Shown here piece after piece: positions 1 to 17,041 of a DNA stretch of 20,252 nt; within the stretch, counting starts at the first letter, position 1; every line of letters starts with the position of its first letter. This stretch comes from a virus: IMG/VR virus record IMGVR_UViG_3300010354_000890, positions 1 through 20,252 of that record. One strand, written 5' to 3'. Position numbers and translations under genes: made by a program. The notes under the pieces were generated by a model. It was not told the origin of the DNA. It ran no database searches and was given only the letters and a program-made list of their open reading frames with translations.

Positions 1-333
1 AAGCAAATCGAAGTGAAACATGGGAAAAAATTTCCCAAAGACGTTATTGAGCACTGGCCAGAAGTATTTGGAGAGATAACTTTAAATGTTATCCCTTTAA
101 AGTATCTTGATAAAATTTCAATCCGATTTAAAAATCAAAAAATTTGGGAAGTGAACGTTCGATCAAAAAAGGTAGAACCAGATTGGGAAACTATAGAAAA
201 AAATATAAAAGAAATACTTCATTCTTATGAATCTCAAATCGATAATATAGATTTTAAATTAGATACAGATCAAATCAAAAAAGATATGATAAAAGAATCT
301 AGACGTTTTTTAAAAAAAAGAAAATTACTATGA
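1..333 (+). CDS. Hypothetical phage protein, 5' end outside window
   Basis: The frame is open from base 1, so the gene almost certainly starts upstream. A GTG at 13 could be read as a start, but four in-frame codons precede it and no clear Shine-Dalgarno is visible. The visible 110 residues are basic and include the stretch HWPEVFGEITLNVIPLKYL, then a short beta-like segment (IRFKNQKIWEVNV) and a Lys-rich helical tail ending in FLKKRKLL. I do not recognise a characterised family; the sequence has the look of a small conserved protein of T4-like marine phages, from memory only. Its stop overlaps the thyX start by 4 bp (ATGA), so the two are probably translationally coupled. No function is assigned. 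Confidence 0.6.
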   Translation, partial: KQIEVKHGKKFPKDVIEHWPEVFGEITLNVIPLKYLDKISIRFKNQKIWEVNVRSKKVEPDWETIEKNIKEILHSYESQIDNIDFKLDTDQIKKDMIKESRRFLKKRKLL

Positions 334-989
334 ACGTTAAACTAATTTCTTCTAGCGAACCTACCGAAGAATTGAAACAAATTGGCATAGAAGACGCCCT
401 AGACCTAGTGGCGTTTTGTGCTAGAGTAAGTAATCCTAGTAATCAACTAAACACGGAAACTAGCGAAAAATTGATCAAATACTTAATCAAGCATAGGCAC
501 TGGTCTCCTTTAGAAATGGTCAGCGCCTGTTTAGAAATTACTACCACACGAGATATTGCTAGACAAATACTACGTCATCGCAGTTTCAGTTTTCAAGAGT
601 TTAGCCAACGCTATGCAGACCCAACAAAAGATCTTAATTTTGTCTATCGAGATGCTAGATTACAGGATCCTAAAAATAGACAAAATAGTATAGAAACCGA
701 TGACGAAATGCTAAAGGCCAAATGGGAAAATATTCAAGCCTCTGTTATACAGGCAAGTAGATCGGCATACGAATGGGCTATCGAGCATGGTATAGCTAAA
801 GAACAGGCTCGTGCAGTCCTTCCAGAAGGACTGATGGAAAGTAAGTTATATATGAATGGAACCATACGTAGTTGGGTTCATTATATTGAACTCAGGAGCG
901 AAAATGGAACACAATTAGAGCATCAAGAAATAGCTTTATCTTGTGCTAAAGTTATATCTAAAATATTTAAAGTCAATTATGAAACCTGA
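330..989 (+). CDS. thyX: Flavin-dependent thymidylate synthase ThyX
   Basis: ThyX makes dTMP from dUMP using methylene-tetrahydrofolate, FAD and NADPH. The 219-residue protein is a normal full length for the family. It carries the exact ThyX signature RHRx2Sx4SxR as RHRSFSFQEFSQR (residues 82-94), with the conserved RHWSPLEM region just before it (55-63) and the C-terminal EQARAVLPEGL and RSWVHYIELR segments that help form the substrate pocket. The ATG overlaps the upstream stop (ATGA). Phages often carry thyX to raise thymidine nucleotide supply during replication. It is the only gene here with a confident core-metabolic role. The downstream rSAM gene overlaps its last 11 bp, which places them in one + strand transcript. 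Confidence 0.96.
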   Translation: MNVKLISSSEPTEELKQIGIEDALDLVAFCARVSNPSNQLNTETSEKLIKYLIKHRHWSPLEMVSACLEITTTRDIARQILRHRSFSFQEFSQRYADPTKDLNFVYRDARLQDPKNRQNSIETDDEMLKAKWENIQASVIQASRSAYEWAIEHGIAKEQARAVLPEGLMESKLYMNGTIRSWVHYIELRSENGTQLEHQEIALSCAKVISKIFKVNYET

Positions 990-2259
990 TAAAAATAATA
1001 CTTACTGTCACTATCCTTTCAGAGAATTAGCTATGAAAGAATACGAAAACGACAAACTTATTGCGGTATGGCCTTGCTGTATGATGGGAAATATAAGACC
1101 AGACGGTAAACCGCTAAGTGTTATCGAAGATCCAAGCAACCTTACCCCGCAAGAAATCTATGATCATCCCAGGATGCAGCAGTTAAGAGAAAACATGATA
1201 AATGGCAAAAGGGATGAGTTATGTAAAGTTTGTTGGGATCAAGAAGATAGGGGTTTATTATCGTTTAGACACTTTTCTGAGTCTAGCGAAATAGAAGAAG
1301 ACAATACCAGACTATCTTCAGTCGACATTTCTGCAAGTAATCTATGTAACTTAAGGTGTAGAATGTGTACGCCGAGGTCTAGTCATTCACTTATGATAGA
1401 TCACGATTTTTTTAAAAAAGCAGGAGAAAGCGATAAAACTTACCCATTTAATTTTATTTTAAGAGATGTAGCAGAAACTACTCAATTTTTTTCAGTTTGG
1501 GAAACAAATACCCCTATTCCATGGAGAATGACTGATTCTGTCCAATGGAAATGGCTAATGGAGAATACTGATAAAATAAGAACTATTAAGGCAAGCGGTG
1601 GCGAGCCATTTTATGATAACAAAGTAATAAAATTAATTGATAGATACATTGAAACAGATAATGCCAAACATACTACTTTATCATTCCATACTAATGGAAC
1701 TTTATTAAGCGACGAACTAATTAATAAGTTGAATAAATTCAAAAGTAATCTTCATAATTTTAGTATAGATGGTTACAGGTCTACCTATAATTATGTAAGG
1801 TATCCAGGAAATTTTGACGACTTAGATAAAAATTTAAGGAATTATTGGACGAAAATAAATCCTAAAGGTATTTTTAGAGTTAACATGGTTTTAACTAGTT
1901 TAAATTTATTATCAGTAATAGACTTCGTTAAGTGGATCGACTCGATCTACACTGACAATTCTATAAATTTTGCTGAAGTTTATGGTTTTGATCGTGGAAC
2001 AAGCATCAATCGACTACCGATTTTTATCTTACAACAAGTTAAAAACGATATTGAAAAATTTTATTCTACGTTTAAAAAAGGTCTTTTGAAAGACGATCAT
2101 AAAACTAAAAATTTAATTCAGCAAATTAACAATGCTATAGAAAATAATAAAGAAGATAAAAGACTTATGCTAAAGGAAATTGGATTTTTTGATGTATCAA
2201 GAAATCAAAAATTTACCGATTATTTAGATCCAATTTTAATTAACTGGCTGTCTTCTTAA
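979..2259 (+). CDS. Radical SAM protein with N-terminal twitch-like Cys domain
   Basis: The 426-residue protein is an rSAM enzyme: CNLRCRMC at 123-130 supplies the CxxxCxxC that ligates the 4Fe-4S cluster, and GGEP at 207-210 is the SAM-binding motif. Before the core lies a Cys-rich region with C10, a CC pair at 33-34 and CxxC at 82-85, which probably binds an auxiliary Fe-S cluster; this matches the N-terminal-twitch rSAM architecture. The C-terminal third has no Cys cluster. I chose ATG 979 because the N-terminus then aligns with its paralogs; the frame is open from an earlier GTG at 943, which would add 12 residues inside thyX. It is the only rSAM gene on the + strand. Its last 20 bp overlap the opposing rSAM gene. 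Substrate unknown. Confidence 0.9.
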   Translation: MKPDKNNTYCHYPFRELAMKEYENDKLIAVWPCCMMGNIRPDGKPLSVIEDPSNLTPQEIYDHPRMQQLRENMINGKRDELCKVCWDQEDRGLLSFRHFSESSEIEEDNTRLSSVDISASNLCNLRCRMCTPRSSHSLMIDHDFFKKAGESDKTYPFNFILRDVAETTQFFSVWETNTPIPWRMTDSVQWKWLMENTDKIRTIKASGGEPFYDNKVIKLIDRYIETDNAKHTTLSFHTNGTLLSDELINKLNKFKSNLHNFSIDGYRSTYNYVRYPGNFDDLDKNLRNYWTKINPKGIFRVNMVLTSLNLLSVIDFVKWIDSIYTDNSINFAEVYGFDRGTSINRLPIFILQQVKNDIEKFYSTFKKGLLKDDHKTKNLIQQINNAIENNKEDKRLMLKEIGFFDVSRNQKFTDYLDPILINWLSS

Positions 2260-3418
2260 AAGATTTATCTCCTGGCCATAGAGGTAGTTTCGTTCCGGGA
2301 GCTCTTTTAGGAATTTTACTATCTGCACTGCTAACACAGCTAGGACTGGTGCAAACCTTAGGGCCATCATATAATTGAAATCCAGTTTCTATGTTGCCTA
2401 TAGGAGGATCATAACAACTATAACTTCTTTTAATACTTCCATCTGGTTCTCTTATAATAATACCTCTATAGCCACTACTACACTCCCAACCATTAAACTT
2501 ATTAAAATTAAAAGCATTAAACCGTTCTGCTTGATCCATATACCAAATTTTTCCAATACTGTCTACAAACTCTACTTGAAAATGTTGTGGAATTTTAGAA
2601 TTTTCTTCTTTAAAGATTGGATCAGGAGTTTTAAAAAAACGTGGTTCGGGACGTTTAACTTTTTTAGCTCTAACTGCTTTATCTTCTGTATATGCTCTTT
2701 GAGGCATTCCGTTATGTAGTCTTTTAAGCATGTCTTCTGTATAGCCATCTACTACACGGCTAGCTGTAGGATCACTTTGTGGTTTCAAAGTAACATTTAT
2801 TCCTTGATTATGAAAAAATAAAGCATTGTCAAAATCTCTATCAAACCATTCAGGAACCATAACCATGTTGATAGTAATTTGAACATCATGCTCTTGACAA
2901 AGTATCAATTTATCTGCGAAATCTTGCATTTTTTCTTTAGTATCAACATGCTCAGTATGTAAACTAGCTGTAATACTAGCTCTATGGAATTTACTAACCG
3001 CAGCACAATATTTTTCTTCAAACCATTTTATAGGTCTGCTCATATTGCTTGTCATATGAACACTAGTGTAATTAGTGTTATCAACGTCATCATTAAGATA
3101 GGCTAAAATATCTATATACCCTGGATGAAATGTAGGCTCACCACCGCTTAAACTAAAATGAAAGCTATTAAAGTTTCTTTCTCTAGCTTGTCTTTTTATT
3201 TCATCTATCGTTTTTAAACAAAGTTCTGTTGGTCTATGATCTTTAGTATCACTCCGAGCATAAGGCCAACAATAGCTACATCTATAATTACAATACCTTC
3301 CTAATAACCAGCTCACTGTAAATAAATCCTTATAAAGCATGGTTCTCTGGCCAACTCTCACTAAATCATCGTAAGGTATAGCAGTAAAATCGTAGGCACT
3401 CCAACTTAAATTTTCCAT
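2240..3418 (-). CDS. Radical SAM protein with C-terminal Cys-rich auxiliary domain
   Basis: The 392-residue protein starts with a short leader, then has CNYRCSYC at 43-50 (CxxxCxxC) and SGGEPTFHPG at 91-100, so the rSAM core is N-terminal. After a basic linker (about 245-265) comes a SPASM-like tail with cysteines at 313, 335, 356 and 361, enough to ligate one auxiliary cluster. This order is the reverse of the neighbouring N-twitch proteins. It is the intact counterpart of the split pair at 5600-6304 and 5130-5603, which shows the same CNYxCxYC, GGEP and FxGWxCS signatures in order. An AAGAGA element sits upstream of the ATG. It is the last gene of the minus-strand block. Substrate unknown. 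Confidence 0.9.
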   Translation of the reverse strand: MENLSWSAYDFTAIPYDDLVRVGQRTMLYKDLFTVSWLLGRYCNYRCSYCWPYARSDTKDHRPTELCLKTIDEIKRQARERNFNSFHFSLSGGEPTFHPGYIDILAYLNDDVDNTNYTSVHMTSNMSRPIKWFEEKYCAAVSKFHRASITASLHTEHVDTKEKMQDFADKLILCQEHDVQITINMVMVPEWFDRDFDNALFFHNQGINVTLKPQSDPTASRVVDGYTEDMLKRLHNGMPQRAYTEDKAVRAKKVKRPEPRFFKTPDPIFKEENSKIPQHFQVEFVDSIGKIWYMDQAERFNAFNFNKFNGWECSSGYRGIIIREPDGSIKRSYSCYDPPIGNIETGFQLYDGPKVCTSPSCVSSADSKIPKRAPGTKLPLWPGDKSFKKTAS

Positions 3419-3437
3419 TATATTTCTCTTATTTTGT

Positions 3438-3445
3438 AATTTATA
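3438..3445 (-). promoter_or_regulatory. Possible T4-type late promoter element
   Basis: The only gap in the 17-kb minus-strand gene run (3419-3458, 40 bp) contains TATAAATT on the minus strand, one base from the T4 late promoter consensus TATAAATA and about 20 bp before the ATG at 3418. In such AT-rich DNA a chance match is likely, so this is only a suggestion that the last gene could be transcribed separately. The rest of the gap shows only the ribosome site. Confidence 0.22.
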
Positions 3446-3458
3446 AGCCTACTTAAAT

Positions 3459-4562
3459 TTAACTATATATCCAATTATATAAATCTGTGTTAAAATCTTT
3501 CCAAGTTTCATTTCTTAAATTGTTAACTTTACTATCTTTATCTTTAAATAAACCTATGTCTCCTTGTTTCTCAAACTCGGAATATATCATACTTAACGTA
3601 TGTTTTGATGATTTACCTATAAGATGATTTAAAACTTTATCTTTAATATCTTTTGGAAGATTACAAGGCTGCATCCAATTAGGACCGTCTACCATTTGCC
3701 ATTCGGTAAGTAGATTACCTTTAAATGTTTCTTTTACAAACTCTTCTAAAAGATAAAATTTGTTCACATTGTATATGCTTATTATTCCATGTATTTTCGC
3801 TTTCTTTGGAAAATTATCGGCAAACCATGACATAGTTTTTACAACATTCTCCCACTTACTACCTTTACGTAAAAAGCTATTTAGATCGCCATAAGCATCA
3901 ACACTAAGATTGACCCAAACTACTTCGCATTGTTTTAATAAACTATGTAACTCTTTGCTTGGTATAATTGTAGAATTAGTTGTAAGTAAAATTCTAAGTT
4001 TTGATAAGTTACATCTTTTTAATAAATTTATAAATTTATCTTGCTCCATAAGAGGTTCACCGCCAATTAATTTTAAATATTTTAATTGGCTTAAATCATA
4101 ATTTTCTAAAATAGGCTTACTGTTTATTATTCCTGATAACTTTATAGGAGGAAAAAACTCTTCACCTAACTTTTTAGCATCATTATACCAGTTAGTAGAT
4201 AACTCAGGATTGCACATCCTACATCTATTGTTACATACATTACTTAATGCTAAATCAACATGTGTTAGAATAGGAGACTTAGGAATATCAGATCCTAGAT
4301 CTCTAACAAAATCTAATCTCATGCTTTTAGTTCCATTACTAATTCTTTCCTGATCGTAACACATTTCACAACCAGGATGAGGTTCATCATTAACCATCGC
4401 ATGTCTAAGTTCTTGCATAAACGGATGATTAAAAACATCACTATAATCTAGATGAAGATCTTTCGGGGTGTGCTCATGTCTAAACTGACAGCACGGATAA
4501 ACCTGATTATTTGGCCTTATGGCAATATGATGAAATGGCAATAAGCATCGATGTTTATACAT
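3459..4562 (-). CDS. Radical SAM protein with N-terminal twitch-like Cys domain
   Basis: The 367-residue protein is the shortest of the five N-twitch rSAM proteins here. The N-terminal Cys domain has C6 in the CLLPFHH context, CC at 24-25 and CEMC at 65-68. The core has CNNRCRMC at 110-117 and IGGEPLM at 166-172, followed by the conserved VNLSVDAYG strand. No C-terminal Cys cluster is visible; the tail ends in the aromatic sequence DLYNWIYS. The ATG at 4562 overlaps the SDR-like gene by 8 bp and has AGAGAG about eight bases upstream. The reaction is unknown; the auxiliary-cluster domain points to a peptide or a small metabolite rather than tRNA. Confidence 0.9.
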   Translation of the reverse strand: MYKHRCLLPFHHIAIRPNNQVYPCCQFRHEHTPKDLHLDYSDVFNHPFMQELRHAMVNDEPHPGCEMCYDQERISNGTKSMRLDFVRDLGSDIPKSPILTHVDLALSNVCNNRCRMCNPELSTNWYNDAKKLGEEFFPPIKLSGIINSKPILENYDLSQLKYLKLIGGEPLMEQDKFINLLKRCNLSKLRILLTTNSTIIPSKELHSLLKQCEVVWVNLSVDAYGDLNSFLRKGSKWENVVKTMSWFADNFPKKAKIHGIISIYNVNKFYLLEEFVKETFKGNLLTEWQMVDGPNWMQPCNLPKDIKDKVLNHLIGKSSKHTLSMIYSEFEKQGDIGLFKDKDSKVNNLRNETWKDFNTDLYNWIYS

Positions 4563-5133
4563 TATTATTCTCTCTATTATACCAATATCCTGTTTGCATA
4601 GGATCTATACTGAGTTCATTTATACATATGTTTGTTGGCTGATTTATTAACCATTCTACATATTTTGCAGCCTGTTCGATTGGCATACACTTCCTATCTG
4701 GGTGTTTATGCTGAACATTACTTAAACTACCAAAGCTAATTAAACTTACCTTTGGACCATGGCTCCACACGCCGTTTATCCCTAATGTATTTGTATAATC
4801 TCGTAGGGCTTTTTTCTCTGCATTATATAACCAAGCACCTCCTTTTTTTACTCGATCTGTTGTTGATCCTATACAAATTATATAACAAGCATGATTATTA
4901 TCGACACAAGATTTATAAACTAAATCTAGTAAGACAGTCTGATTAAATTTCCATAAAGCACTGCAATTTATAAACACGTCATATTCTAATACAAGCTTTG
5001 CACATTTTTTTTGATCTTCTAAATTTGTAAGATCAAACCCAGTGTTTCTACTCAAGAATTTAGCTGTCGGGAACAATTTAAATAATTCCTTAGCTAGACC
5101 ATAATTTGAATTCCCTGCAATTAATATTTTCAT
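4555..5133 (-). CDS. Short-chain dehydrogenase/reductase-like protein
   Basis: The protein of 192 residues has a Rossmann-like N-terminus MKILIAGNSNYGLAKEL (Gly at 7 and 12, the cofactor-binding loop), an acidic position at D34 (FDLTN, as in the SDR DxxD region), INCSA at 55-59 in the place of the usual NNAG, S90 in ICIGST, and YNAEK at 103-107 giving the YxxxK catalytic pair. It is short for an SDR (usually about 250), with most of the C-terminal substrate region missing, so it may be a reduced NAD(P)-dependent oxidoreductase or epimerase. I chose ATG 5133 because it makes an ATGA overlap with the gene before; a TTG four codons upstream is also in frame. It sits within the rSAM run and may act on the same product. 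Confidence 0.75.
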   Translation of the reverse strand: MKILIAGNSNYGLAKELFKLFPTAKFLSRNTGFDLTNLEDQKKCAKLVLEYDVFINCSALWKFNQTVLLDLVYKSCVDNNHACYIICIGSTTDRVKKGGAWLYNAEKKALRDYTNTLGINGVWSHGPKVSLISFGSLSNVQHKHPDRKCMPIEQAAKYVEWLINQPTNICINELSIDPMQTGYWYNRENNNV

Positions 5134-5603
5134 CGAGTCATCCAAATCACACGTTCTTTAGCAGGATGAGCTTCTTCAGTTAAACTATTATTAAACACAT
5201 TCATATCGACATGATTTTTTAACACATTCTTATAATTTTCTTTATACATACTCTTAGGAGCACACAAGCCACAACCGCAAACTTTTTTAGGACAAATTAT
5301 TGTAGGCATAGTTTCTGATTTTAACCTAGCTTCTAATTCTTCAAGAATTTTATCAGACTCACTTAATTTTCCTATAGGCCCCCGCTTACCGCCAAAATCT
5401 GCCTGACAAGTTTGATGATGATAAACACTGTCACTATGCTGTTCAATGTGCATAAAAAACCAATTCACACTGCAATACCATCCTTCAAACTCTCTAAACT
5501 CAACAAATTTACTCTTACGGCTTTCTGCTCCTTCGCTAAGACACATTGTTCTTGACCCGCAACAAGGCCTGCCTATAGCCATTCCTAGTTTTTTATCGCT
5601 CAT
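5130..5603 (-). CDS. Free-standing Cys-rich SPASM-like domain protein (split rSAM, C-terminal part)
   Basis: The 157-residue protein has no rSAM core but many cysteines: GRPCCGSRTMC (14, 15, 21), GWYCSVNW (44), HHQTC (66) and CPKKVCGCGLC (104, 109, 111, 114). The FxGWxCS element lines up with FNGWECSS in the C-terminal domain of the 2240-3418 protein. The gene follows the 234-residue core protein with a 4-bp ATGA overlap. Together they equal one complete rSAM/auxiliary-domain enzyme of about 390 residues. It probably binds one or two Fe-S clusters and associates with the core protein; this is inference. Its own AAGAAGG ribosome site seven bases before the ATG argues that it is truly made as a separate protein. 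It could instead serve several rSAM cores. Confidence 0.78.
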   Translation of the reverse strand: MSDKKLGMAIGRPCCGSRTMCLSEGAESRKSKFVEFREFEGWYCSVNWFFMHIEQHSDSVYHHQTCQADFGGKRGPIGKLSESDKILEELEARLKSETMPTIICPKKVCGCGLCAPKSMYKENYKNVLKNHVDMNVFNNSLTEEAHPAKERVIWMTR

Positions 5604-6304
5604 ACATTAACCTTCTTAGTATCTTTATTCCAATAATCTTTAAACCATTGTAGCTGCTCGTCAGTATATTGATGTGCAAAACTACTTTTGCTATCCGGTT
5701 CTTCTCCTATTATTCTTGGAACATAACGTATTTCATTATTGTCTAACCAATAACATAATTCTTTGCATTCATCAAAATAAGCAGCATGAAACATAACATT
5801 TATACTTACATTCATTCCATGGTCCGGGCCTTCTTTACTAAACTGTAACATACGTCTTTTGACCTGTTCTTTCAATCTTTTATCTGCTTCAGCATGATAA
5901 CTTATAGTTATATGATTAAAGTTATCAAGAACAGCATCAGCTATTTTCTTACTCATTGCTCCATTACTTGTAACAGTAAAACTACATTCGTATAAATCTG
6001 CATATTCTTGATTATATAAGCTTCTTATATACTCTGCAAATTCTATAAACTTAGGATGAACTGTGGGTTCTCCACCAGTAAAATTAATACTGGCTTTTTT
6101 ATAATATCTATATTGCATGTATAACTTTATATACTTGAATACAAATTCAGCATTCTTTTTAAGATCATCTAAAGGTGCATGGGGGCTCCAATTATCGTGC
6201 CGGTGACTGGGACAATAAGTGCAATCATAGTTACATCTCCTTCCTAAATCCCAAGTAATTTGTAATTGGTTACCATCTAACAAATCTACCGTATCAAAAC
6301 TCAT
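5600..6304 (-). CDS. Radical SAM core-only protein (split rSAM, N-terminal part)
   Basis: The 234-residue protein has CNYDCTYC at 24-31 (CxxxCxxC) and FTGGEPTVHP at 75-84, and then stops after the TIM-barrel portion. It lacks any C-terminal Cys domain. Its first 100 residues share the LGRxCNYxCxYC, SxNFTGGEP and HPxxIxxxxY pattern with the 392-residue protein at 2240-3418, whose chain continues into an auxiliary domain; here that domain is the next gene, overlapping by ATGA. The ATG at 6304 itself overlaps the gene before by 4 bp and has AGAGAT upstream. It is most likely the catalytic half of a two-subunit enzyme. An older frameshift that became fixed would give the same picture. Confidence 0.9.
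   Translation of the reverse strand: MSFDTVDLLDGNQLQITWDLGRRCNYDCTYCPSHRHDNWSPHAPLDDLKKNAEFVFKYIKLYMQYRYYKKASINFTGGEPTVHPKFIEFAEYIRSLYNQEYADLYECSFTVTSNGAMSKKIADAVLDNFNHITISYHAEADKRLKEQVKRRMLQFSKEGPDHGMNVSINVMFHAAYFDECKELCYWLDNNEIRYVPRIIGEEPDSKSSFAHQYTDEQLQWFKDYWNKDTKKVNV
5611..5617 (-). promoter_or_regulatory. Shine-Dalgarno of the detached auxiliary-domain gene
   Basis: AAGAAGG on the minus strand lies seven bases before the ATG at 5603, inside the end of the core gene. It is one of the better ribosome sites in the window and supports independent initiation of the auxiliary-domain protein rather than a sequencing frameshift. Confidence 0.6.
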
Positions 6305-7611
6305 ATATAATCTCTAAACATTGGTTCTACATTAACTAAACTTTCATTCCTAATTTTATCTAAACCTCTTGTATATTTCACAAAATGATCCCATTCTGTC
6401 TCGTAATAACTTTCACTATTCATATAGTTTATAATGCCTTTTGAGATCGACTCAGCTTGCTCTATAATATTAGAATTAAAATTGTTATCTATTACCCATT
6501 GATTAAATTCATCGAATTTTTTTGTAACATCTTGCTTAAATTTTGTCGGTAAAACCCTTACATTGAGATGCTTAGGATGATGAGCAACATGATGTGTAAC
6601 AATTGGTTTAAGCAAACTAGGATTGATTCTTTTAAATCCGCTTTCTATTAGTTTCCATTTCATAAAATCAACCATATGATTAACATTATAAGCCGTTACG
6701 GTAAATGCCAACCAACTAAACACATTATTAGGTAGCTGATCTAATATTTGCAAATTTTTATAGATTTTATCCCATTTTGCAGGATGCCTTTGATATTCAA
6801 CAACAGAACCAAAACCGTCAACACTAGCTCCAACTCGGACTTGTTTAAATTGCTTCCATAGATTAGTTACTCTAGAAGGCAATGTGCTCATATTAGTATT
6901 ATACTCAACAACAATATGTTTAGCAGCATCTTTTTCGACACATCTTTCAAGAAAGTCATAATGCCTTTCAATTAACATAGGTTCACCACCAGCAAAGTAA
7001 ACGTGCTCAATATTATGAATATTTGCTTCTAATTGTTCCCAAAAAGGTTCATACTCTGGCCAGTTAAATGCTTCTACTTGTAGACCTTTTTTGGTTTCTT
7101 TAATTTCCATTATTCCAGAAGTATCTTTAAATTTATTACTTCCGGTTAATTCAATCCAATCATCATACCATGCACTACTATCGGTAGGACCACACATACG
7201 GCATTTTAAATTACAAAAATTACCAAAACGTAAATCATAATAGACTACAGGACATTCATCAAGATCGATACTACCATCTTCTTTTGTTTTAGATCTAGCC
7301 TGTTCAACTGTAAGCTTCCAATTACGTTGTTCATACTGTCGTCTACTATTAAGTCCATTCTCTTCTTCACTCCTACATCTGCCACATTCGTCATTCCAAA
7401 CTCCGTTTAACATGTTAAGTCTCATTATTTTTAACATATTAGTATTTCTTGCGTCAACTAAACTGTCACGTCCTGCATTATAAGCAGTGCCATCATCCTT
7501 TCTGATTACACCCTGATTTTTTGTAACATTAGCTTGACAACATACTCTCAAATCACCGTTCGCTCGAATAGCTTGAAAATTCCAAGGAATAGGACAAAAA
7601 GTATTATTCAT
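6301..7611 (-). CDS. Radical SAM protein with N-terminal twitch-like Cys domain
   Basis: The 436-residue protein begins MNNTFCPIPW, with C6, CC at 24-25 and CGRC at 76-79 forming the N-terminal auxiliary domain. The core has CNLKCRMC at 133-140 followed by the DSSAW element, and FAGGEPM at 206-212. It is closest to the 9832-11241 protein: both have YxDLRFG before the Cys motif, a DSSxW element after it, and a C-terminal HPxHLNVxVLPxxFK block. The pair looks like an old tandem duplication. The gene overlaps the PP-loop gene by 8 bp and the downstream split core by 4 bp; no clear Shine-Dalgarno precedes its ATG, so it may depend on translational coupling. Substrate unknown. Confidence 0.92.
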   Translation of the reverse strand: MNNTFCPIPWNFQAIRANGDLRVCCQANVTKNQGVIRKDDGTAYNAGRDSLVDARNTNMLKIMRLNMLNGVWNDECGRCRSEEENGLNSRRQYEQRNWKLTVEQARSKTKEDGSIDLDECPVVYYDLRFGNFCNLKCRMCGPTDSSAWYDDWIELTGSNKFKDTSGIMEIKETKKGLQVEAFNWPEYEPFWEQLEANIHNIEHVYFAGGEPMLIERHYDFLERCVEKDAAKHIVVEYNTNMSTLPSRVTNLWKQFKQVRVGASVDGFGSVVEYQRHPAKWDKIYKNLQILDQLPNNVFSWLAFTVTAYNVNHMVDFMKWKLIESGFKRINPSLLKPIVTHHVAHHPKHLNVRVLPTKFKQDVTKKFDEFNQWVIDNNFNSNIIEQAESISKGIINYMNSESYYETEWDHFVKYTRGLDKIRNESLVNVEPMFRDYI

Positions 7612-8452
7612 AATATTGACGCAGTTTGTTCATAGTATCAGGAAGTTTACTAACTGCCCAGTCCCTTTCTAAGCACCAAAAACAAGCACCGCACACAGGA
7701 ACATCCATACCCGGTTTATAAGACTCAAGTGTGGGAACCACAGGATTTATATGATTACCATCATTAATATCTCCCTCGCAACCTCTTGTGGTATTAAATA
7801 AGTCTTCTGCTCCATGAATGAAATACTGTGCAACTATCCAGTCTTTTTGCACGAATCTATACGGATGTATAAACCAAGTTCCTTTATCATGATACATAAT
7901 GTCTCGAAGAGTTCCTTGTTCAGATGTTTTATCTCGCTCTTTCATTCTATTGTCAAATACCTCGTCGCTTGGGTTCATACTTGTCCCATTAAAAATTGCA
8001 CTAAGTTTGTGCTTATATGCAACGTAACTATTAAAGCTCGATCCTTCTATTTGATCACCGCTGCGACCTTTAATTATTGGTCCTATAACACCGTATTCTA
8101 ATTCAGGAGGTATATAATTCTCATAGCGGTTACCTATAATTTTTGGAAACATAGATTTTAATTTTTGATAAACTTCATGACCTTTTGGTTCTTGCCATGG
8201 TCGTGTAGTCCAGCATCTCACAAATGTTATTACATGAATTTTACATTTATAGTTATTTTCTTTTATAATTTTACAAAGCAATAAACACAAACTTGCACTA
8301 TCTGCTCCTCCCGAAATGTTAATTCCAATTTGTCTCCATGTAAGACTAAATGGAATAGTTAAACCGCATACTTTATGAAAAACAAAATTATCGGCATCTT
8401 CAGGAAAATATTTGTATAAATCATTGTATAGTGAATTTGAAACTTCAAACAT
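7604..8452 (-). CDS. PP-loop ATP pyrophosphatase, QueC-like
   Basis: The protein of 282 residues carries the PP-loop SGGADSA at 47-53, which binds ATP and adenylates a substrate with release of pyrophosphate. Near the C-terminus are C225 (TTRGCEGD) and CGACFWCLERDW (C254, C257, C260), resembling the zinc site of QueC (7-cyano-7-deazaguanine synthase). QueC makes a nitrile from a carboxylate and ammonia. The middle of this protein is unlike what I remember of QueC, and no queD, queE or folE partner is seen, so it probably activates another carboxylate or amide. I chose ATG 8452 because GAAAGGG stands six bases before it; an in-frame ATG at 8476 would overlap the previous gene by 23 bp and has no ribosome site. 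Confidence 0.82.
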   Translation of the reverse strand: MFEVSNSLYNDLYKYFPEDADNFVFHKVCGLTIPFSLTWRQIGINISGGADSASLCLLLCKIIKENNYKCKIHVITFVRCWTTRPWQEPKGHEVYQKLKSMFPKIIGNRYENYIPPELEYGVIGPIIKGRSGDQIEGSSFNSYVAYKHKLSAIFNGTSMNPSDEVFDNRMKERDKTSEQGTLRDIMYHDKGTWFIHPYRFVQKDWIVAQYFIHGAEDLFNTTRGCEGDINDGNHINPVVPTLESYKPGMDVPVCGACFWCLERDWAVSKLPDTMNKLRQYYE

Positions 8453-8453
8453 T

Positions 8454-9842
8454 TTAAACCCTTTCAATTTTTCCATTATTAAATTTATAATTTACATAAT
8501 ACTCATTAAAATCTTGTCCCCAAATCTTATCAGTTTTTCTTATATAAGTTTGAAAAGCATCCAATATTCGTTCATAACTTAAATCATTATGACCAAGACT
8601 CTTAGCATAAGATTCTAAATTAGTGTTTAATGTGTAAACCTTAATGTCATTTAGTGCTCTTTTAGCCATATGTATATCAGTAAATAATTCTGCACAACCT
8701 GAGTTATATGATCTACGAGTAGTGTTTTCATTTCTTTTCAATCTGTTAAATGTTTCTTTTTCTAAAATTTTAGCAGTTTCATCTAAATCGTTAAGTATAT
8801 AATCTCTAAATTTTTGATTCATAAGAGACGGATTAAGATATATCGGACTATAAACCATCGATGCGTCAATACTATAAAAATCTAGCTGTAACAAACTATA
8901 AAAGATATTTTGCAAATCCATTATTTGATAAGCACTAGTAGTTATAACTGCTACAAAAACAGCAGTATTATTATACTCTCTAAAAATCTTAATATTATTT
9001 TCTAGTTTAGCCCAATCTCCTGTTCTAAAATAAGGATAAATGTTTGTTCCAGCATCAACACTTACATGAATGATAGCTTGTTTAAACGGAATTAACAAAT
9101 CATGTAACTTTTTAGGATCGAAATTGGCATTGAAATTTGAGTGGAAAGAAATTACAATCTCATTAGCAGCAGGATGCTCTTTTAATAATTCTAAAAAATA
9201 AAAAAATTGTTTTTGATTTAAAACTTCTCCCCCAGCAAATTCTACCCTTCTAATGTTTAACGCATTTTCGCACAAGTCGTGAACAATTTCTTTGACTTGA
9301 TCCAACGTAATTTCTAATTCACCGGTATCATCGTCACTTTCTCTATGTTCGGTGCGTAGTAATTGTTTTAAATCATAAAATTTTACTTCTTCATCGGGAA
9401 CATAATGTTTTAATTTACTAACCCATCCACTAGAATATACAGTACTACAATGTCTACACGCCATATTACAACTATTGCTGAATCGTAATTCTATATGTTT
9501 GAGTCCAGATAACTTAGAGGTTCCAGCCGAATATAATTTTCCATCTATAGTAGTATCATTAAAATTATATAAGTCTGATTCTGCTTCATAATCTTGCCTC
9601 ATAGACTTACTTCCTATAGCTTCGGGCTCTTTACATAAATGACATCCCCTGCTCCATTGACCATTCATCATTTCCAGCCTATGCTGAACAAATCCTTTTG
9701 AATTAAAAATCTCGCTAGGCTTAATAGACTGAGTCATAGAGATCAACTGATCTGGATTTTGCGGACAACTTGTTACAAAACCATTTTTGTAATTTATTCC
9801 GTGTAAAGTAAAATAACATAAAATAGGATCTTTAGATTCCAT
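8454..9842 (-). CDS. Radical SAM protein with degenerate N-terminal Cys domain
   Basis: The 462-residue protein has the rSAM motif CNMACRHC at 125-132 and FAGGEVL at 202-208. The N-terminal domain follows the layout of the other N-twitch proteins (C9, then CHLC at 67-70), but the usual CC pair is a single Cys in TSCPQNP (C26). The auxiliary cluster may therefore have a different ligand set or be lost. After the core Cys motif comes SSGW, as in the 9832-11241 protein, and then an acidic stretch (ESDDDTGE, about 168-175). The C-terminal part is rich in Tyr and Asn and has no Cys cluster. AAGGG lies about nine bases before the ATG. The gene overlaps the upstream rSAM gene by 11 bp. Substrate unknown. 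Confidence 0.9.
   Translation of the reverse strand: MESKDPILCYFTLHGINYKNGFVTSCPQNPDQLISMTQSIKPSEIFNSKGFVQHRLEMMNGQWSRGCHLCKEPEAIGSKSMRQDYEAESDLYNFNDTTIDGKLYSAGTSKLSGLKHIELRFSNSCNMACRHCSTVYSSGWVSKLKHYVPDEEVKFYDLKQLLRTEHRESDDDTGELEITLDQVKEIVHDLCENALNIRRVEFAGGEVLNQKQFFYFLELLKEHPAANEIVISFHSNFNANFDPKKLHDLLIPFKQAIIHVSVDAGTNIYPYFRTGDWAKLENNIKIFREYNNTAVFVAVITTSAYQIMDLQNIFYSLLQLDFYSIDASMVYSPIYLNPSLMNQKFRDYILNDLDETAKILEKETFNRLKRNENTTRRSYNSGCAELFTDIHMAKRALNDIKVYTLNTNLESYAKSLGHNDLSYERILDAFQTYIRKTDKIWGQDFNEYYVNYKFNNGKIERV
8459..8465 (-). promoter_or_regulatory. Shine-Dalgarno deciding the PP-loop gene start
   Basis: GAAAGGG on the minus strand lies six bases before the ATG at 8452. The alternative in-frame ATG at 8476 has only A/T upstream. 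The site therefore favours the shorter protein starting MFEVSN. Confidence 0.6.
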
Positions 9843-11241
9843 TAAAAATGCCCTTCATTTCTGGAAATATATTGTTAAAACTTAAATTTCTATGTGCATC
9901 TAATTTTTCTAAATATTCTTTCATTTCTGGTAGCCTCATACTCCAATCTTCACTCTCCATAAACTTAAGCATACCTTCTAGCCTATCCAGTCCGTAACCA
10001 GCTTTAAGCCATTTTTCTTTTGTAATTTTACCTTTATGCCATTCAGGAACACCAAGCTCCCAGTTATCTTCCCACCATGGATAAAATTCTTCAAACTTAC
10101 GACGACATTCTGCTTTAAACCATTTAGGCAATACTTTTACATTTAAATGTGGTGGATGATATACAAAATGATAATTTATACCCCCAGCTCCAAATGGAAA
10201 CATATTAACCTTCTTAAACCCTTGAGTTAACTTCCATTTTAAAAAATCTGGCAGGTAGTAAATATTTAATGCTTGCACTGCACAGGCAATTGTAACTTCA
10301 ACATTATCACTTGTTTCTTTATCTAATATATGAAAAACTTCATTAGTTCGTTCCCATTTACTAGGATACCTAATATATTCATTCATTTCACCTATACTAT
10401 CAACACTATAATGAAATCTTACTATTTTAAAATGCTTCCATAAATCAAATAAGTCATCTCTCCATTCCACACCATTACTATTATATCTTATTTCTAAATT
10501 AGGCGCATGTCCTTGTCTAATAACCTCTTCAAGTATATCATAATGTTCTTCAATTATTAAACTCTCACCGCCCGCAAAATATAGCTGCTGCATATGCGGA
10601 ATTTGATCATAAAATTGTTGCCAAAATACAGGATTAGTTTTATGCCAATTATAACTAGACCCATTAATACTGCCTTTATTATTCCATTGCCAAGTTTCTT
10701 TTAAACTTTTATTTTCTAACTGAGGATAAACAGCTTGCCATTCTTTAATCCACCCTGAACTGTCGTGTGGACTACACATAACACAGGCTAATTGACATTT
10801 AGTTCCAAATCTTAAATCAATATAACTTACTTTAGGAGGAATACTCCCGTCTTCTGCTGTATTTTTAATAAGATCAGGAACACTTACCCGCTCACTCCAA
10901 TATTTTGTTTCCCATTGTCTTTTACTATTGTGGCCAGCTTGTTCTTCTTTATAGCATTTAGTGCAACTTGGAGGTTCTTCTCCATTAAGCATTTGCAATC
11001 TTACATTTTTCATATAAGTGCTATTCCAGCTACTTAAAAAATCTGCTACATTTAAATTACTTGGTCTTCCTTCATCATCCTTTAAAACACCTATCATACC
11101 CCCGTGGCTTTTATCATTAGTTGGTCCTACGCTGCTAGCATTAGCTGTGCAGCATACCCGCATACTACCATCGGGACGTGTCGATAAATGAATCCATGGA
11201 AGGATGCAAAATGTTTTAGAAGGGCTATTATTTGTTGTCAT
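9832..11241 (-). CDS. Radical SAM protein with N-terminal twitch-like Cys domain
   Basis: The protein of 469 residues has the fullest N-terminal Cys domain: C12 in FCILPWIHLS, CC at 30-31 after TRPDGSMRV, and CTKC at 93-96. The core follows with CQLACVMC at 149-156, the DSSGW element, and FAGGESL at 222-228, where the usual Pro after GGE is Ser. A C-terminal HPPHLNVKVLPKWFK block is shared with the 6301-7611 protein. I chose ATG 11241 because the FCxLPW element then sits near residue 12 as in its paralogs; another in-frame ATG at 11265 would add eight residues (MRLALKKK) and overlap the previous gene further. Trp content is high in the C-terminal third. Substrate unknown. Confidence 0.9.
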   Translation of the reverse strand: MTTNNSPSKTFCILPWIHLSTRPDGSMRVCCTANASSVGPTNDKSHGGMIGVLKDDEGRPSNLNVADFLSSWNSTYMKNVRLQMLNGEEPPSCTKCYKEEQAGHNSKRQWETKYWSERVSVPDLIKNTAEDGSIPPKVSYIDLRFGTKCQLACVMCSPHDSSGWIKEWQAVYPQLENKSLKETWQWNNKGSINGSSYNWHKTNPVFWQQFYDQIPHMQQLYFAGGESLIIEEHYDILEEVIRQGHAPNLEIRYNSNGVEWRDDLFDLWKHFKIVRFHYSVDSIGEMNEYIRYPSKWERTNEVFHILDKETSDNVEVTIACAVQALNIYYLPDFLKWKLTQGFKKVNMFPFGAGGINYHFVYHPPHLNVKVLPKWFKAECRRKFEEFYPWWEDNWELGVPEWHKGKITKEKWLKAGYGLDRLEGMLKFMESEDWSMRLPEMKEYLEKLDAHRNLSFNNIFPEMKGIFNGI

Positions 11242-11584
11242 TTTTTTCTTCAAAGCTAATCTCATTCATTCCAGATTGGTTGAATGAGCATGTTGTAATA
11301 CAAACTGAAAAATGTTGTGGATGAGTAGGATCCCAACTTTTTTCAAGATCCTTGGCAAAATAATCATCGGTAATTATTTCATCTATGGTTCTATCTTTTA
11401 AATTATTCCAATTTTTCTGATAATGCATTTTAGATTCAAATTCATCAGGATATTTTATACTATGAGTCCATAAAAAACAACAAGGCCATAAAGTTTTATT
11501 TGACGCAATGTAAAGTTCATTTTGATGGACAAATTTACACTTTATAGTAGATGCTGCTTTATTAAGAAGTTCGTTTTTGCTCAT
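11228..11584 (-). CDS. Free-standing SPASM-like domain protein (split rSAM, C-terminal part)
   Basis: The 118-residue protein consists of a Cys-rich module: C16 in IKCKF, CC at 35-36 in LWPCCFLWT, and C95/C99 in VCITTC. The same order (IKCK, SLYIS, QPCCW, ICAKIC) occurs in residues 283-376 of the full-length 12308-13474 protein. It follows the 249-residue core gene with a 23-bp overlap, so the two together rebuild a normal SPASM rSAM enzyme. TAGGAT stands six or so bases before its ATG. It probably binds an auxiliary Fe-S cluster and docks on the preceding core; that is inference. The tail is acidic (EISFEEKND). A frameshift origin is possible, but the frame shows no obvious repair site. Confidence 0.75.
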   Translation of the reverse strand: MSKNELLNKAASTIKCKFVHQNELYIASNKTLWPCCFLWTHSIKYPDEFESKMHYQKNWNNLKDRTIDEIITDDYFAKDLEKSWDPTHPQHFSVCITTCSFNQSGMNEISFEEKNDNK

Positions 11585-12311
11585 TTGTAATCCTAAAAAG
11601 TTCTTTAAGCAAGTCTGCTTTAGAATGTGCTAACTCTTGTGTTGAATGTAGCCGCTTTTGATCAATAGTTGTAACTCTGGTTTCTTTGTCCTTTACTCTT
11701 TTTTTCTGCACAAATCCTAACGAATTACCTATCCCTTTTCTAGTGGCAAACTTTATACCTAACCTTTCTGCATGAGCACGAGCTAAATCTAATTCATATT
11801 CATTGTGATCAAAAACATTATACATCCATGTGGCATTAGGAAATCCTTGTTTTCCATCTTTACTACCCTGAACATACGATTCAATGTTTCTTATTATTGT
11901 TTTAAAATTAGCATTTACTCTATAGATATCATTAGTTTCTTCATAACCATCTACACAAAACCAAATGCTGCCTTTTCCAGAATCGCTGCTAAGTTTGCCT
12001 AAATTATACCACCACTTAGATGTTTCAAGACTAGTATTACTATTAAGCTCAACCCATCCATTGTTAGATATTAAATACTCTACTATACTAAAACAATCTT
12101 TATTAGCTACAGGATCTCCCAAAGCTCCACATAGTAAAAAAAATTTGTTATCTATTGATTGTTTAGTCGGAAACATATCTTTTATGTCTTGTATTGTTAG
12201 ACTAGTCAATTCATATCTTCCCATTTCTTTAGTTCTGTGACAAAGACCGCATTCTAGATTACATAAGCTAGTAATTTCTAGTTCAATAAATCTGATATCA
12301 TCTAACTTCAT
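11562..12311 (-). CDS. Radical SAM core-only protein with CGxxGDP motif (split rSAM, N-terminal part)
   Basis: The 249-residue protein has CNLECGLC at 17-24 very near the N-terminus, and CGALGDP at 61-67 where other rSAM proteins have GGEP. It is a paralog of the first 250 residues of the 12308-13474 protein: both show the IxxxHLExT or FIELEIT lead-in, CGxxGDPxA, a VDGYEETN/LDGLEDTN strand and NxxWxYxVFxHNE. Here the chain ends after a Lys/Arg-rich tail without a SPASM domain, which is encoded by the next gene (23-bp overlap). GGAG precedes the ATG by about nine bases. It is likely the catalytic half of a two-component enzyme. Confidence 0.88.
   Translation of the reverse strand: MKLDDIRFIELEITSLCNLECGLCHRTKEMGRYELTSLTIQDIKDMFPTKQSIDNKFFLLCGALGDPVANKDCFSIVEYLISNNGWVELNSNTSLETSKWWYNLGKLSSDSGKGSIWFCVDGYEETNDIYRVNANFKTIIRNIESYVQGSKDGKQGFPNATWMYNVFDHNEYELDLARAHAERLGIKFATRKGIGNSLGFVQKKRVKDKETRVTTIDQKRLHSTQELAHSKADLLKELFRITNEQKRTS
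11591..11594 (-). promoter_or_regulatory. Shine-Dalgarno of the detached SPASM-like gene
   Basis: AGGA on the minus strand, within TTAGGATT, lies six bases before the ATG at 11584 and inside the end of the core gene. It supports independent translation of the 118-residue protein. Confidence 0.5.
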
Positions 12312-13474
12312 TTGAATTGCTCCGAAAAGGCATCATATTTAGCTCCACAAATTTTAGCACAAATAGATAATTTACCATCTGCACAAGACGGTTTATTCCA
12401 ACTTTCAGGAATTAGTTTTTGAAAAAACAATCCATCTACAATTTCTTGTAAAGGATTATGAATCGCGTTTAATTTTTCTTTACCGATTTGATCTATTAAC
12501 TTCCATATTTGTGTTGATCTTGGAGTATGATACCAAATATACATTTGTCCCGCTGTCCAACAACAAGGTTGAACTATTCCTTCTGCACTTATATACAAGC
12601 TTTTTTCTTCAGAAACCTTACACTTAATGACTGCTTCGTCCCAAACTTTCTCAATTGGTTTTTTCTTACCTATATCTTTGGTAAAAAATTGAGGATATAC
12701 TTCAATGTCTTCTACTTTACTAGGTATAAACTTTACTCCTTCATCTCCTTTAGCAAATTTACTTAATTCATCTAGCACACTATTACGATATTTTAAATTC
12801 TTAGGCGCTTGGAGAAGTGCTGTAGAAATCCCTTTTCGATTTCCAGCCTGATGCATTTCTTTAGTAACACCACTTACATTACTAAAAAATCTAGCAGATT
12901 TTTTATATTGAAACTTTTCAAATTTCATTTGTTTAGACAATAATTCAGCCTGCTCTACTTGATGCTCGTTGTGAGCGAAAACTATGTAATCCCAGCGAGC
13001 ACGACCTCCGGCATCAATAAATGCTTGAGCATTGCTCATAATCTTTGACCAAATTGTATTTTGTCTATATAGATGATTAGTATCTTCAAGCCCGTCAAGG
13101 CTGAATACCACATAGCCTTTGCGACCAATGGTCTGAGCCAGCTCCGCCCACCATTCAGGCCTCTTTGCTGACCCGTTTGTATGCATACTCAGCATCATCT
13201 TAGGGTTATACTCTCTGAAATATGCAAATGTTTCTAGCGTATCTCGAGCAGCAATCGGATCCCCGTAGTTTCCACACATATACATTCTTTCTAATTGTGC
13301 AATAAACTCGGGCTTGAAGATTTGTTTTATATCATTTAAGGATAATTCTGTGCCAGGTAGTTGAGGATTATCTTCTCCTCCGTTAATATTACGGGCACAC
13401 ATTGGGCAGGCTGCATTACAAGCATCTGTCATTTCAAGATGAATTGTTTTTATTTCATCATATTTATATAACAT
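12308..13474 (-). CDS. SPASM-type radical SAM protein with CGxxGDP motif
   Basis: The 388-residue protein has CNAACPMC at 19-26, CGNYGDP at 67-73, VFSLDGLEDTN around 123-133, and a C-terminal SPASM-like domain with C285, CC at 304-305, C364, C372 and C376. This is the usual layout of rSAM/SPASM maturases that modify peptides or proteins, though the substrate cannot be read from sequence. It is the intact version of the split pair just downstream. The gene overlaps its neighbours by 1 bp (TAATG) upstream and 4 bp (ATGA) downstream. Its N-terminal half is unusually GC-rich: 62 of the 120 bases at 13081-13200 are G or C, against 18 of 60 at 12181-12240. This points to a recombined or recently acquired segment. 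Confidence 0.9.
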   Translation of the reverse strand: MLYKYDEIKTIHLEMTDACNAACPMCARNINGGEDNPQLPGTELSLNDIKQIFKPEFIAQLERMYMCGNYGDPIAARDTLETFAYFREYNPKMMLSMHTNGSAKRPEWWAELAQTIGRKGYVVFSLDGLEDTNHLYRQNTIWSKIMSNAQAFIDAGGRARWDYIVFAHNEHQVEQAELLSKQMKFEKFQYKKSARFFSNVSGVTKEMHQAGNRKGISTALLQAPKNLKYRNSVLDELSKFAKGDEGVKFIPSKVEDIEVYPQFFTKDIGKKKPIEKVWDEAVIKCKVSEEKSLYISAEGIVQPCCWTAGQMYIWYHTPRSTQIWKLIDQIGKEKLNAIHNPLQEIVDGLFFQKLIPESWNKPSCADGKLSICAKICGAKYDAFSEQFK

Positions 13475-13698
13475 TATTCCATCACTAACTTTATATCTTT
13501 TGCAGGTCCAACGCGACTAGGTAAATCTCCATATTGTTCAATATAATCTTTTATAACTACTTTATACCAATTTTGACTGTTATGGTAAGCTTGAGCATTA
13601 TATTTGTAAATATTGTTATTAGTCGCTTCTATAACACTAAGAGCACGAGCAGCTTCTTTTTGCAAATCCCTCAACTCTAAAACATCCAAATCTATCAT
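13474..13698 (-). CDS. Small hypothetical protein, 74 residues
   Basis: The protein is not recognised. The N-terminal half is predicted helical and charged (LELRDLQKEAARALSVIEA), the middle is rich in Asn, Tyr and Gln (NNNIYKYNAQAYHNSQNWY), and the end has DLPSRVGPAKDI. There are no cysteines, no signal peptide and no membrane segment. It sits between the repeat-methyltransferase gene (4-bp ATGA overlap) and the intact SPASM rSAM gene (1-bp overlap, TAATG), with AGGA six bases before its ATG, so it is certainly translated with them. It could be a partner or adaptor; a role as peptide substrate is possible but no leader or cleavage motif is seen. Confidence 0.7.
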   Translation of the reverse strand: MIDLDVLELRDLQKEAARALSVIEATNNNIYKYNAQAYHNSQNWYKVVIKDYIEQYGDLPSRVGPAKDIKLVME

Positions 13699-15449: not shown

Positions 15450-16119
15450 AAATTTCCTCGTATTTTTCTTTTAACCAATCAAAATCATTAATTTTTTTTA
15501 ATTGCTCTAAGTTTCCTCTATACAGCATACCGTATTTTTTACCTTCCTTGGCTCCTGCTATAGAAAATTCACCAAAAGGTCTATCAAGTCCTCTACTACA
15601 CCAAACATCTAATCTTTGATTAGTTTCGTCGTCCTTTTGCCTATCAATCACTTTACTACCCAATTTGCAACATTCTCTAAAAGCGCTCTTCCAAGTATTA
15701 AATTCGTCAGTATTAAAAGAAGTAATATTACTTACTTCCATTACAGGTTTAAATTTTTCACTTATACTAGTAGTCATATCGGGTTTAGAAAGATCCATAT
15801 TAACAGTCATTAAACGAGGAAGAAGCTTAACTCCGCCATTTCCATATATTAAATCATTAACAGGATTTTTACTCCTCCATACATGCACAGTATCTCTAAT
15901 ACGAGTCATGTAGTCAAAATAAAATGTGTCAGAAATGATTGCATCTCCATCGACTACCCAAAACATTTCAGTATGACATTGTTTAGCAGCTTCTATATGC
16001 GCCTGATGAATTCCTTTAATTCCGTGTATTCTTTTAGCTGTAGGAAATCTTAGGAACAAATTCTTCCAATTTTCTTCGGCATTTTCTTCTTGATAACTTA
16101 TAAAAACTATATCAAACAT
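15442..16119 (-). CDS. Glycosyltransferase-like protein (GT-A type), first pair
   Basis: The 225-residue protein starts DIVFISYQEEN, then has FPTAKRIHGIKGI, AHIEAA and FWVVDGDA, where D57 and D59 form a DxD-like metal/nucleotide-sugar site after a beta strand. LIYGNGGVKLL at about 90-100 is shared with the next paralog. This is the pattern of GT-A glycosyltransferase-like proteins seen in T4-like phages, from memory. Donor and acceptor are unknown; virion protein, DNA or host surface are all possible. It overlaps the methyltransferase gene and its own paralog by 8 bp each. At 225 residues it is shorter than the paralog (309), which has an extra C-terminal region. Confidence 0.7.
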   Translation of the reverse strand: MFDIVFISYQEENAEENWKNLFLRFPTAKRIHGIKGIHQAHIEAAKQCHTEMFWVVDGDAIISDTFYFDYMTRIRDTVHVWRSKNPVNDLIYGNGGVKLLPRLMTVNMDLSKPDMTTSISEKFKPVMEVSNITSFNTDEFNTWKSAFRECCKLGSKVIDRQKDDETNQRLDVWCSRGLDRPFGEFSIAGAKEGKKYGMLYRGNLEQLKKINDFDWLKEKYEEIYG

Positions 16120-17041
16120 TTTCGATCACCCAATCATTTGCCATTCTAGGAGGATTAGTATATAATTCTTTAAAAAACTTACTTAAATTAGGATCTAGAT
16201 AATTAGAACTAGTAGGAATATCTAAATTGTCTTTTAAACTTTTCCCCAACCGTCCTATTTCTGAAATTAATTTGTTTTCATTTTTAGGCGCCAGATCATT
16301 AAAAAGATCATTTAAGTAACTAAATGTTCTTACATTTAAAAAGTCCCAGTTTTCTAACATAGTCATATGACATCCTAAACGTGCTCCATATATAGCCCAT
16401 AATCCATTCTTCACATCACTACCTACATTTAACCAAGTAAGCAACCGATGATAATTTTTCCAATGAATTTGTTTGTTAAAAGGCTTATTTAGATCAGGCT
16501 TAGATCCCTCAAGCAGACACATTTTTACACCTTCTCTAAATCCAGCTCTCCAAGCTTGCCGAGGACTATCATTATTATATACCCAACTCATCCAATTTTT
16601 CATTTGAAGATATTTTATTTCCCAGCAGAAATCAACTTGAGTTTTTCCGTTTTCTGATTCTGCGTTTTCGTGTGTTTTCATATCTAGTATAAGTTGTGTA
16701 TGCCAATTTTTAATACTGCCATTTCCATAAATTAAACCATTTACTACATTGTAAGCTGGAAATGATAAAACACATTTAGACAAATCTGCATGATCATGAA
16801 ATTCAATTACTTGATCTATCAACTCATGCTTAACTATATTATCTCCGTCAACAATGGTTACACGTTCAGTTTCTGCTAACTTTGCACATGCCTTATGAGC
16901 ACTATCGCTACCATGAACTCCATCTACCCTTTTAGCCCAAGGAAATTTCTTTTTTAAATCAGCAAAATTTTTTTCCTTGTTCGGCTCGTCATAGCTTAAA
17001 AAAATTAAATCATTATCTATTATTTTAACTTTTTTTGTCAT
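16112..17041 (-). CDS. Glycosyltransferase-like protein (GT-A type), first pair
   Basis: The protein of 309 residues is a paralog of the 15442-16119 product: DLIFLSYDEPN, FPWAKRVDGVHG, VTIVDGDNIV (D65 and D67 as the DxD-like pair) and NGLIYGNGSIKNW match in order. It has about 85 additional C-terminal residues, including a Leu-rich helix region (SYLNDLFNDLAP) of unknown role. I chose ATG 17041; a TTG seven codons upstream is in frame but is a poor start and lies further inside the previous gene. It overlaps that gene by 17 bp. The reaction is inferred from fold-level motifs only; no sugar specificity can be given. Confidence 0.7.
   Translation of the reverse strand: MTKKVKIIDNDLIFLSYDEPNKEKNFADLKKKFPWAKRVDGVHGSDSAHKACAKLAETERVTIVDGDNIVKHELIDQVIEFHDHADLSKCVLSFPAYNVVNGLIYGNGSIKNWHTQLILDMKTHENAESENGKTQVDFCWEIKYLQMKNWMSWVYNNDSPRQAWRAGFREGVKMCLLEGSKPDLNKPFNKQIHWKNYHRLLTWLNVGSDVKNGLWAIYGARLGCHMTMLENWDFLNVRTFSYLNDLFNDLAPKNENKLISEIGRLGKSLKDNLDIPTSSNYLDPNLSKFFKELYTNPPRMANDWVIENV

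Follow-up and report, generated by a model that had tools for sequence, protein, structure and literature searches.

The window analysed here, an IMG/VR virus record of 20,252 bases, carries nine radical SAM (rSAM) cores within the region studied, positions 979-13474. Comparison with related loci shows a conserved multi-enzyme set whose core comprises genes C, G/F, I, K, N and P together with glycosyltransferase-like genes. The region forms a single operon-like block in a T4-type phage: tail-fibre-like neighbours, followed by glycosyltransferase-like, methyltransferase-like and rSAM genes. We see about an even chance that this tail-linked island builds or tailors an unusual glycan.

Radical SAM genes of the block

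A sequence-only reading had described nine CxxxCxxC cores of three architectures in phage DNA, each core with a GGE or a CGxxGDP motif, and this description stands. All nine proteins lie where they had been placed, against 0.07 CxxxCxxC proteins expected by residue shuffling of the 24 window proteins. In each, the motif falls inside a radical SAM domain. When the products were searched against rSAM models, eight of the nine exceeded the PF04055 cut-off; the exception and weakest case, M, scores 15 bits, under that cut-off, but is backed by matches to NCBIfam N_Twi_rSAM (NF033640; 40 bits, 2e-10) and PHROG 21308 (phrog_21308, 3e-13). The three architectures correspond to three sequence families: N-terminal-twitch enzymes (B, D, H, J, K), C/G and M/N. 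GGE is present in B, C, D, G, H, J and K, and CGxxGDP in M and N.

The minus-strand genes from V (19542) to C (2240) overlap by 1–38 bases, with a single exception, a 40-base gap. Eight of the rSAM genes are on this strand and the ninth, B, is on the opposite one. In three relatives (G001, G002, G003) the block adjoins tail-fibre-like and structural genes, and G001 encodes a T4-type late sigma factor, a baseplate wedge and a tail lysozyme, which bears out the assignment to phage. The conserved flank of the cluster, outside the pathway, is a ThyX thymidylate synthase (330..989, plus strand; PF02511, 4e-42), whose junction is the same in G001, G002, G007 and several further loci. Since the gene set recurs in the same order, this junction included, in independent contigs, a chimeric contig is ruled out. 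Promoter scans were of little help: allowing one mismatch, the T4-type late promoter TATAAATA matched at 87 sites where 105 were expected, and is therefore uninformative, and scans for sigma-70-like promoters and terminators were near background.

The N-terminal-twitch (N-twitch) enzymes are defined by NF033640, with a curated cut-off of 170 bits. B (979..2259, plus strand; 233.7 bits), D (3459..4562, minus; 220.3 bits), H (6301..7611, minus; 374.5 bits), J (8454..9842, minus; 198.6 bits) and K (9832..11265, minus; 421 bits) exceed it, spanning 198.6–421 bits, and each has four to five N-terminal cysteines ahead of the core. C, G, M and N fall under it, at 37.6–46.5 bits, with the match confined to the core region. 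For the SPASM model PF13186, D and K are slightly under the cut-off. Among solved structures, the closest to the N-twitch set is that of the sactipeptide enzyme SkfB (5.6e-6). The reading frame of B is also open from a GTG at 943.

The five N-twitch genes form five separate clades with support of 0.998–1.0 (B and D each in a clade of their own, that of B with support 1.0; K with 0.998), which rules out recent tandem duplication. Of the five, only K belongs to a clade that extends over both types of locus described below. In comparisons with G001, G006 and G007, dN/dS was 0.04–0.23 for the rSAM genes where estimable, values that are approximate because synonymous sites are near saturation in several pairs. 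The cluster genes are under purifying selection. Together with syntenic orthologues and the well-supported clades, this agrees with the earlier view that the genes are not a single recent expansion.

Split enzymes and their partners

C (2240..3418, minus strand; PF04055, 1e-14; dN/dS 0.04) combines an rSAM core with a C-terminal cysteine-rich auxiliary domain, and N (12308..13474, minus; PF04055, 1e-8; phrog_21308, 4e-24) has C-terminal SPASM-type cysteines, with no match to SPASM PF13186. Both are core genes of the two locus types. In G and M, the core and the auxiliary domain are encoded separately. G (5600..6304, minus; PF04055, 2e-13) is followed by F (5130..5603, minus), a cysteine-rich domain with nine cysteines and no Pfam match, PF13186 included. 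F is 57–73% identical to the C-terminus (118–138 residues) of fused G-F proteins in 33 loci, and G is 234–246 aa long where split from F and 369–405 aa where fused. Likewise, M (11562..12311, minus) is followed by L (11228..11584, minus), a detached SPASM domain (PF13186, 22.6 bits against a cut-off of 21.5). In most relatives L and M are one protein of about 345–378 aa; they are separate in the window and in G006.

The two detached auxiliary domains noted by the sequence-only reading are therefore real, L being a SPASM domain and F aligning to fused G, but they are best read as the C-terminal domains of G and M, subunits of split enzymes and not additional enzymes. Since each pair is a single protein in relatives, the window has two natural two-gene rSAM enzymes, with separate core and auxiliary-domain genes. 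Their fusion in relatives and the overlap of the genes suggest that G-F and M-L work as complexes. A frameshift artefact is not favoured as the source of the detached domains, since the splits recur in relatives (G/F in a dozen, M/L in G006 at 57% identity) with dN/dS near 0.11. Such pairs would offer enzymology rSAM cores and auxiliary domains that are naturally separate subunits.

Among the rSAM genes lies I (7604..8476, minus strand), a QueC-like PP-loop ATP ligase by alignment and fold search. Among 19 homologues, the SGGxDS motif (SGGADS in I) is invariant at S47, G48, G49, D51 and S52, as are four cysteines, at 225, 254, 257 and 260. Like QueC, Cap9 and QatC (PF06508), I has a PP-loop ATPase fold, SGGxDS, and a C-terminal CxxCxxC with one upstream cysteine. 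Unlike them, it sits among rSAM genes, and its first cysteine lies 28 residues before CxxCxxC instead of the 8 of the family zinc motif, C(x)8CxxCxxC (PMC13329287). In a term search of that recent PF06508 survey, radical SAM did not come up. Matches of canonical QueC models to the family are marginal: I of the window has no Pfam match, and the PF06508 gathering score is passed in 1 of 19 related records. A fold search with the predicted model (pLDDT 91.3) placed QueC on top (Z 14.1 and 14.0), with other PP-loop enzymes close behind (MesJ/TilS 12.9, Cap9 12.3). We call I QueC-like because its cysteine spacing and Pfam score miss the QueC definition; it probably works like QueC, though outside the formal family. 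QueC-type enzymes use ATP to activate a carboxylate, which is joined to ammonia or to a protein N-terminus (PMC13279940).

The remaining genes of the run are also on the minus strand. E (4555..5145) is an SDR-like NAD(P) oxidoreductase, assigned by weak SDR models. O (13474..13698) is a 74-aa protein predicted to fold into a compact helical bundle (pLDDT 94.8); its best PDB match has an E-value of 2.5, that is, none, which does not make the fold new. We can only guess that O is a scaffold or partner protein. P (13695..15449) has N-terminal repeats and a conserved C-terminal part of about 200 aa that by inspection resembles a class I methyltransferase, with no Pfam or PDB family match. Q and R (15442..17062) are glycosyltransferase-like by alignment, with a conserved DxD and weak Glycos_transf_2 matches. 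T and U (17570..19199) are GT8-like, with a profile match to glycogenin at 6e-4 and a conserved DxD. For the glycan reading, the window thus offers T/U and, weakly, Q/R; sugar-nucleotide enzymes are seen in relatives only.

Recurrence across viruses and possible products

Searched as a single sequence, I returned five viral loci. A profile search found 113 stretches in IMG/VR viral contigs and, in about 85,000 genomes, one contig from a bacterial bin, which is probably itself phage; these counts are lower bounds because the scan relies on short conserved motifs. Among 50,697 records of isolated phages, tblastn found none with I, C or Q. The 80 loci fetched from the 113 stretches fall into two types. 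Type-1 loci (n = 46) contain between 4 and 12 rSAM genes, nine at the median, usually arranged as Q P O N M K J I H G (F) E D ... C. In type-2 loci (n = 34), of which many are fragments, the median is six, and I, K, G, N, C, P and Q are for the most part retained. Common to both types are C, G, I, K, N and P, usually with glycosyltransferase-like genes, which are present in 36/46 type-1 and 20/34 type-2 loci, many loci being fragments. P is present in 41/46 and 28/34, respectively; O, conserved end to end, in 38 type-1 loci and no type-2 locus. E is kept in 31 type-1 loci, and B, F and E vary among relatives. The set recurs in many related viruses but is all but absent from bacterial genomes, and so has the look of a dedicated viral assembly line.

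What might such a pathway make? The strongest single pointer to glycan chemistry is the sugar context of bacterial N-twitch loci, though the sample is small. In bacteria the N-twitch family is rare: of 299 Pseudomonadota genomes, 3 have an N-twitch rSAM enzyme above the cut-off, and of 385 genomes in the class of G008, 2 do. With the phage-like contigs of G008 set aside, three chromosome-like loci remain (G084, G119, G661), and all three sit among sugar genes. G084 has four N-twitch copies beside WbsX, TylF, RmlC and RmlD, one of them fused, within an 854-aa protein whose domains are ABC ATPase, Wzt_C, SPASM and radical SAM. Wzt is the ATPase of an O-antigen exporter, and its C-terminal domain recognises the chain end. 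In G119 and G661, epimerase/dehydratase and GT2 genes lie nearby. The viral relatives add sugar genes of their own: near its rSAM genes, G001 has a nucleotidyltransferase with a kinase-like domain and a mannose-phosphate-isomerase-type cupin, and it further carries GatZ-like and shikimate-dehydrogenase-like genes. G003 has a carbamoyltransferase and a GDSL hydrolase.

We propose that the rSAM enzymes would act in succession on a sugar or glycan precursor, altering it by radical chemistry, that I would activate a carboxylate with ATP to give an amide or conjugate, and that the glycosyltransferase-like enzymes would place the product on the virion tail or on the surface polysaccharide of the host. 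A likely benefit would be altered receptor recognition, superinfection exclusion or tail protection; the choice among these is a guess. Besides the glycosyltransferase-like genes in the run and the sugar genes of viral and bacterial relatives, this glycan reading draws on the related islands of phages CP220, Mosig and K566, the scant space for a precursor peptide and the low dN/dS. Against it, the window has no demonstrated sugar-nucleotide enzyme, Q and R only weakly resemble glycosyltransferases, and the bacterial context consists of three loci. A stronger version seems to us possible but doubtful: that a virus-specific pathway, near-absent from cellular genomes, makes a modification of no known cell on the tail or host surface, using at least four conserved rSAM enzymes (a locus can have as many as twelve), of which two are split, and a new lineage of QueC-like ligase.

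SPASM/twitch enzymes are best known as peptide maturases, a role that counts against the glycan reading, as does SkfB as nearest solved relative of the N-twitch set. Both would suit the maturation of a protein or peptide, with rSAM cross-links or other changes made on a tail fibre or on O and the product capped by I in the manner of Cap9 on its partner protein. The conservation of O within the operon fits this, as does the Asp_Arg_Hydrox domain of many type-2 loci, since hydroxylases of this Asp/Asn type might just as well have protein substrates; QueC-like enzymes are able to conjugate to the N-termini of proteins, and Cap9 appears in the fold search with I (PMC13279940). Nonetheless, we consider maturation unlikely, though a serious alternative. 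Between N and I, the median free space in 28 loci is 0 bp and the largest single gap is 117 bp, so that within the overlapping operon, which is all that this count covers, no precursor peptide gene fits beside a maturase. O is disfavoured as a universal peptide substrate: it is predicted to be folded and is absent from all 34 type-2 loci. The bacterial relatives, moreover, are in sugar clusters. Hence, of the modification pathway put forward by the sequence-only reading, the multi-enzyme and probably multi-step character holds, and its leaning towards peptide maturases is not supported, given the lack of precursor room in nearly all 28 loci and neighbours mainly of sugar chemistry.

A small-molecule pathway, yielding a free metabolite or a modified base (7-deazaguanine-like or other) that protects DNA or serves host takeover, would account for I, for a QueE-like gene with a SIQGEG motif in relative G002, and for the class III aminotransferase and, by inspection, amidinotransferase-like genes of type-2 loci. 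We judge it improbable, though likewise a serious alternative: the QueE-like motif occurs in one contig only, canonical QueC models barely match I, and QueD/PTPS is above the cut-off in only 1 of 19 related records, themselves fragments, which disfavours the canonical 7-deazaguanine route. It is very unlikely that the genes are independent auxiliary metabolic genes that came together in a hypervariable region without forming one pathway. In pelagimyophages, regions next to the tail genes are indeed hypervariable (PMC7029224), and B, F and E come and go among relatives, but the conserved order, the overlapping genes, the core common to both locus types, the purifying selection on each gene and the co-conservation across diverse phages all argue for joint function.

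Other phages with many radical SAM genes

The sequence-only reading took one rSAM gene to be usual for a phage, which published genomes contradict (PMC2853527, PMC5332604, PMC7029224). Campylobacter phages CP220 and CPt10, T4-related like the window phage, have 11 and 12 rSAM proteins (PMC2853527). The marine T4-like genome TARA_ERS488813_N000010 has 12 rSAM genes, counted in the context of Fe-S genes (PMC5332604); the likeness to the window phage is one of published counts alone. In pelagimyophages, rSAM cassettes occur together with glycosyltransferases in a hypervariable region next to the tail genes, which the authors take to alter host O-chains (PMC7029224). The phenomenon is thus known in outline. 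Many-rSAM phages have been mentioned since 2010, with a general metabolic advantage as the only explanation so far. In these papers we found no description of the conserved core, the split enzymes or the QueC-like partner; a narrow full-text search of open-licence papers, which is weak evidence, returned no prior description as a viral biosynthetic cluster. With a core set, a gene order, split enzymes and a candidate ATP ligase defined, it can be tested which of some seven genes are required and what they make; the answer may include a new means by which phages change their own tails or the surface of the host.

Related islands share parts of this set in different combinations. Vibrio phage K566, like the window, has five N-twitch rSAM proteins within about 17 kb, with no match to C, G, I, N, O or P in the 31 kb compared. 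Pelagibacter phage Mosig EXVC030M shares N-, G- and P-family members and has a carbamoyltransferase and an ArnB-like aminotransferase; the stretch compared has no N-twitch, I or O match. The stretch of CP220 compared is without a match to the N-twitch, QueC-like I, O and P families, and similarity is about 26–30%. Like the present loci, CP220 has members of the N and C/G families as well as an amidinotransferase with a relative in these loci, and its rSAM cluster lies beside nucleotide-sugar transferases, with a tail-fibre gene in the neighbourhood.

Repeats and long reading frames

In the methyltransferase-like gene P (13695-15449), units of ~40 residues, LLxYLGK-like by eye, are repeated N-terminal to the conserved C-terminal domain. 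This stretch is mostly absent in relatives such as the phage contigs G002 and G003. A related phage contig, G001, has a reading frame of 4,417 aa that adjoins baseplate genes (C1:38303-51556). Long proteins of 537–603 aa, encoded in loci L076 (2268-3878), L075 (124-1932) and L065 (227-1870), resemble Q/R-type glycosyltransferase-like domains fused in tandem.

QueC-like and QueE-like genes

Between the N-terminal-twitch radical SAM (rSAM) genes K and J, locus L011 (7722-8654) and many type-1 loci have an extra, diverged copy of the QueC-like gene, with ~30% identity. A QueE-like protein with a SIQGEG motif is encoded in G002 (C1:20732-21580; L022/L023), ~10 kb away from the rSAM cluster.

Bacterial and bacterially binned contigs, and type-2 neighbours

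On bacterial contig G084:C19, an O-antigen-like cluster includes a gene (L123, 8582-11143) whose product combines ABC ATPase, Wzt_C, SPASM and rSAM domains in one chain. Short contigs L117 and L125, from a Rhodobacteraceae bin (G008), carry QueC-like, N-twitch and P-like genes as well as stand-alone SPASM-like genes, and are probably phage DNA placed in a bacterial bin.

Next to their rSAM genes, type-2 loci (L112 and L101, left halves) have several oxygenase-like genes, together with amidinotransferase-like and SDR-like genes and one for a class III aminotransferase. Campylobacter phage CP220, which has rSAM modules, has a homologue of the amidinotransferase-like gene.
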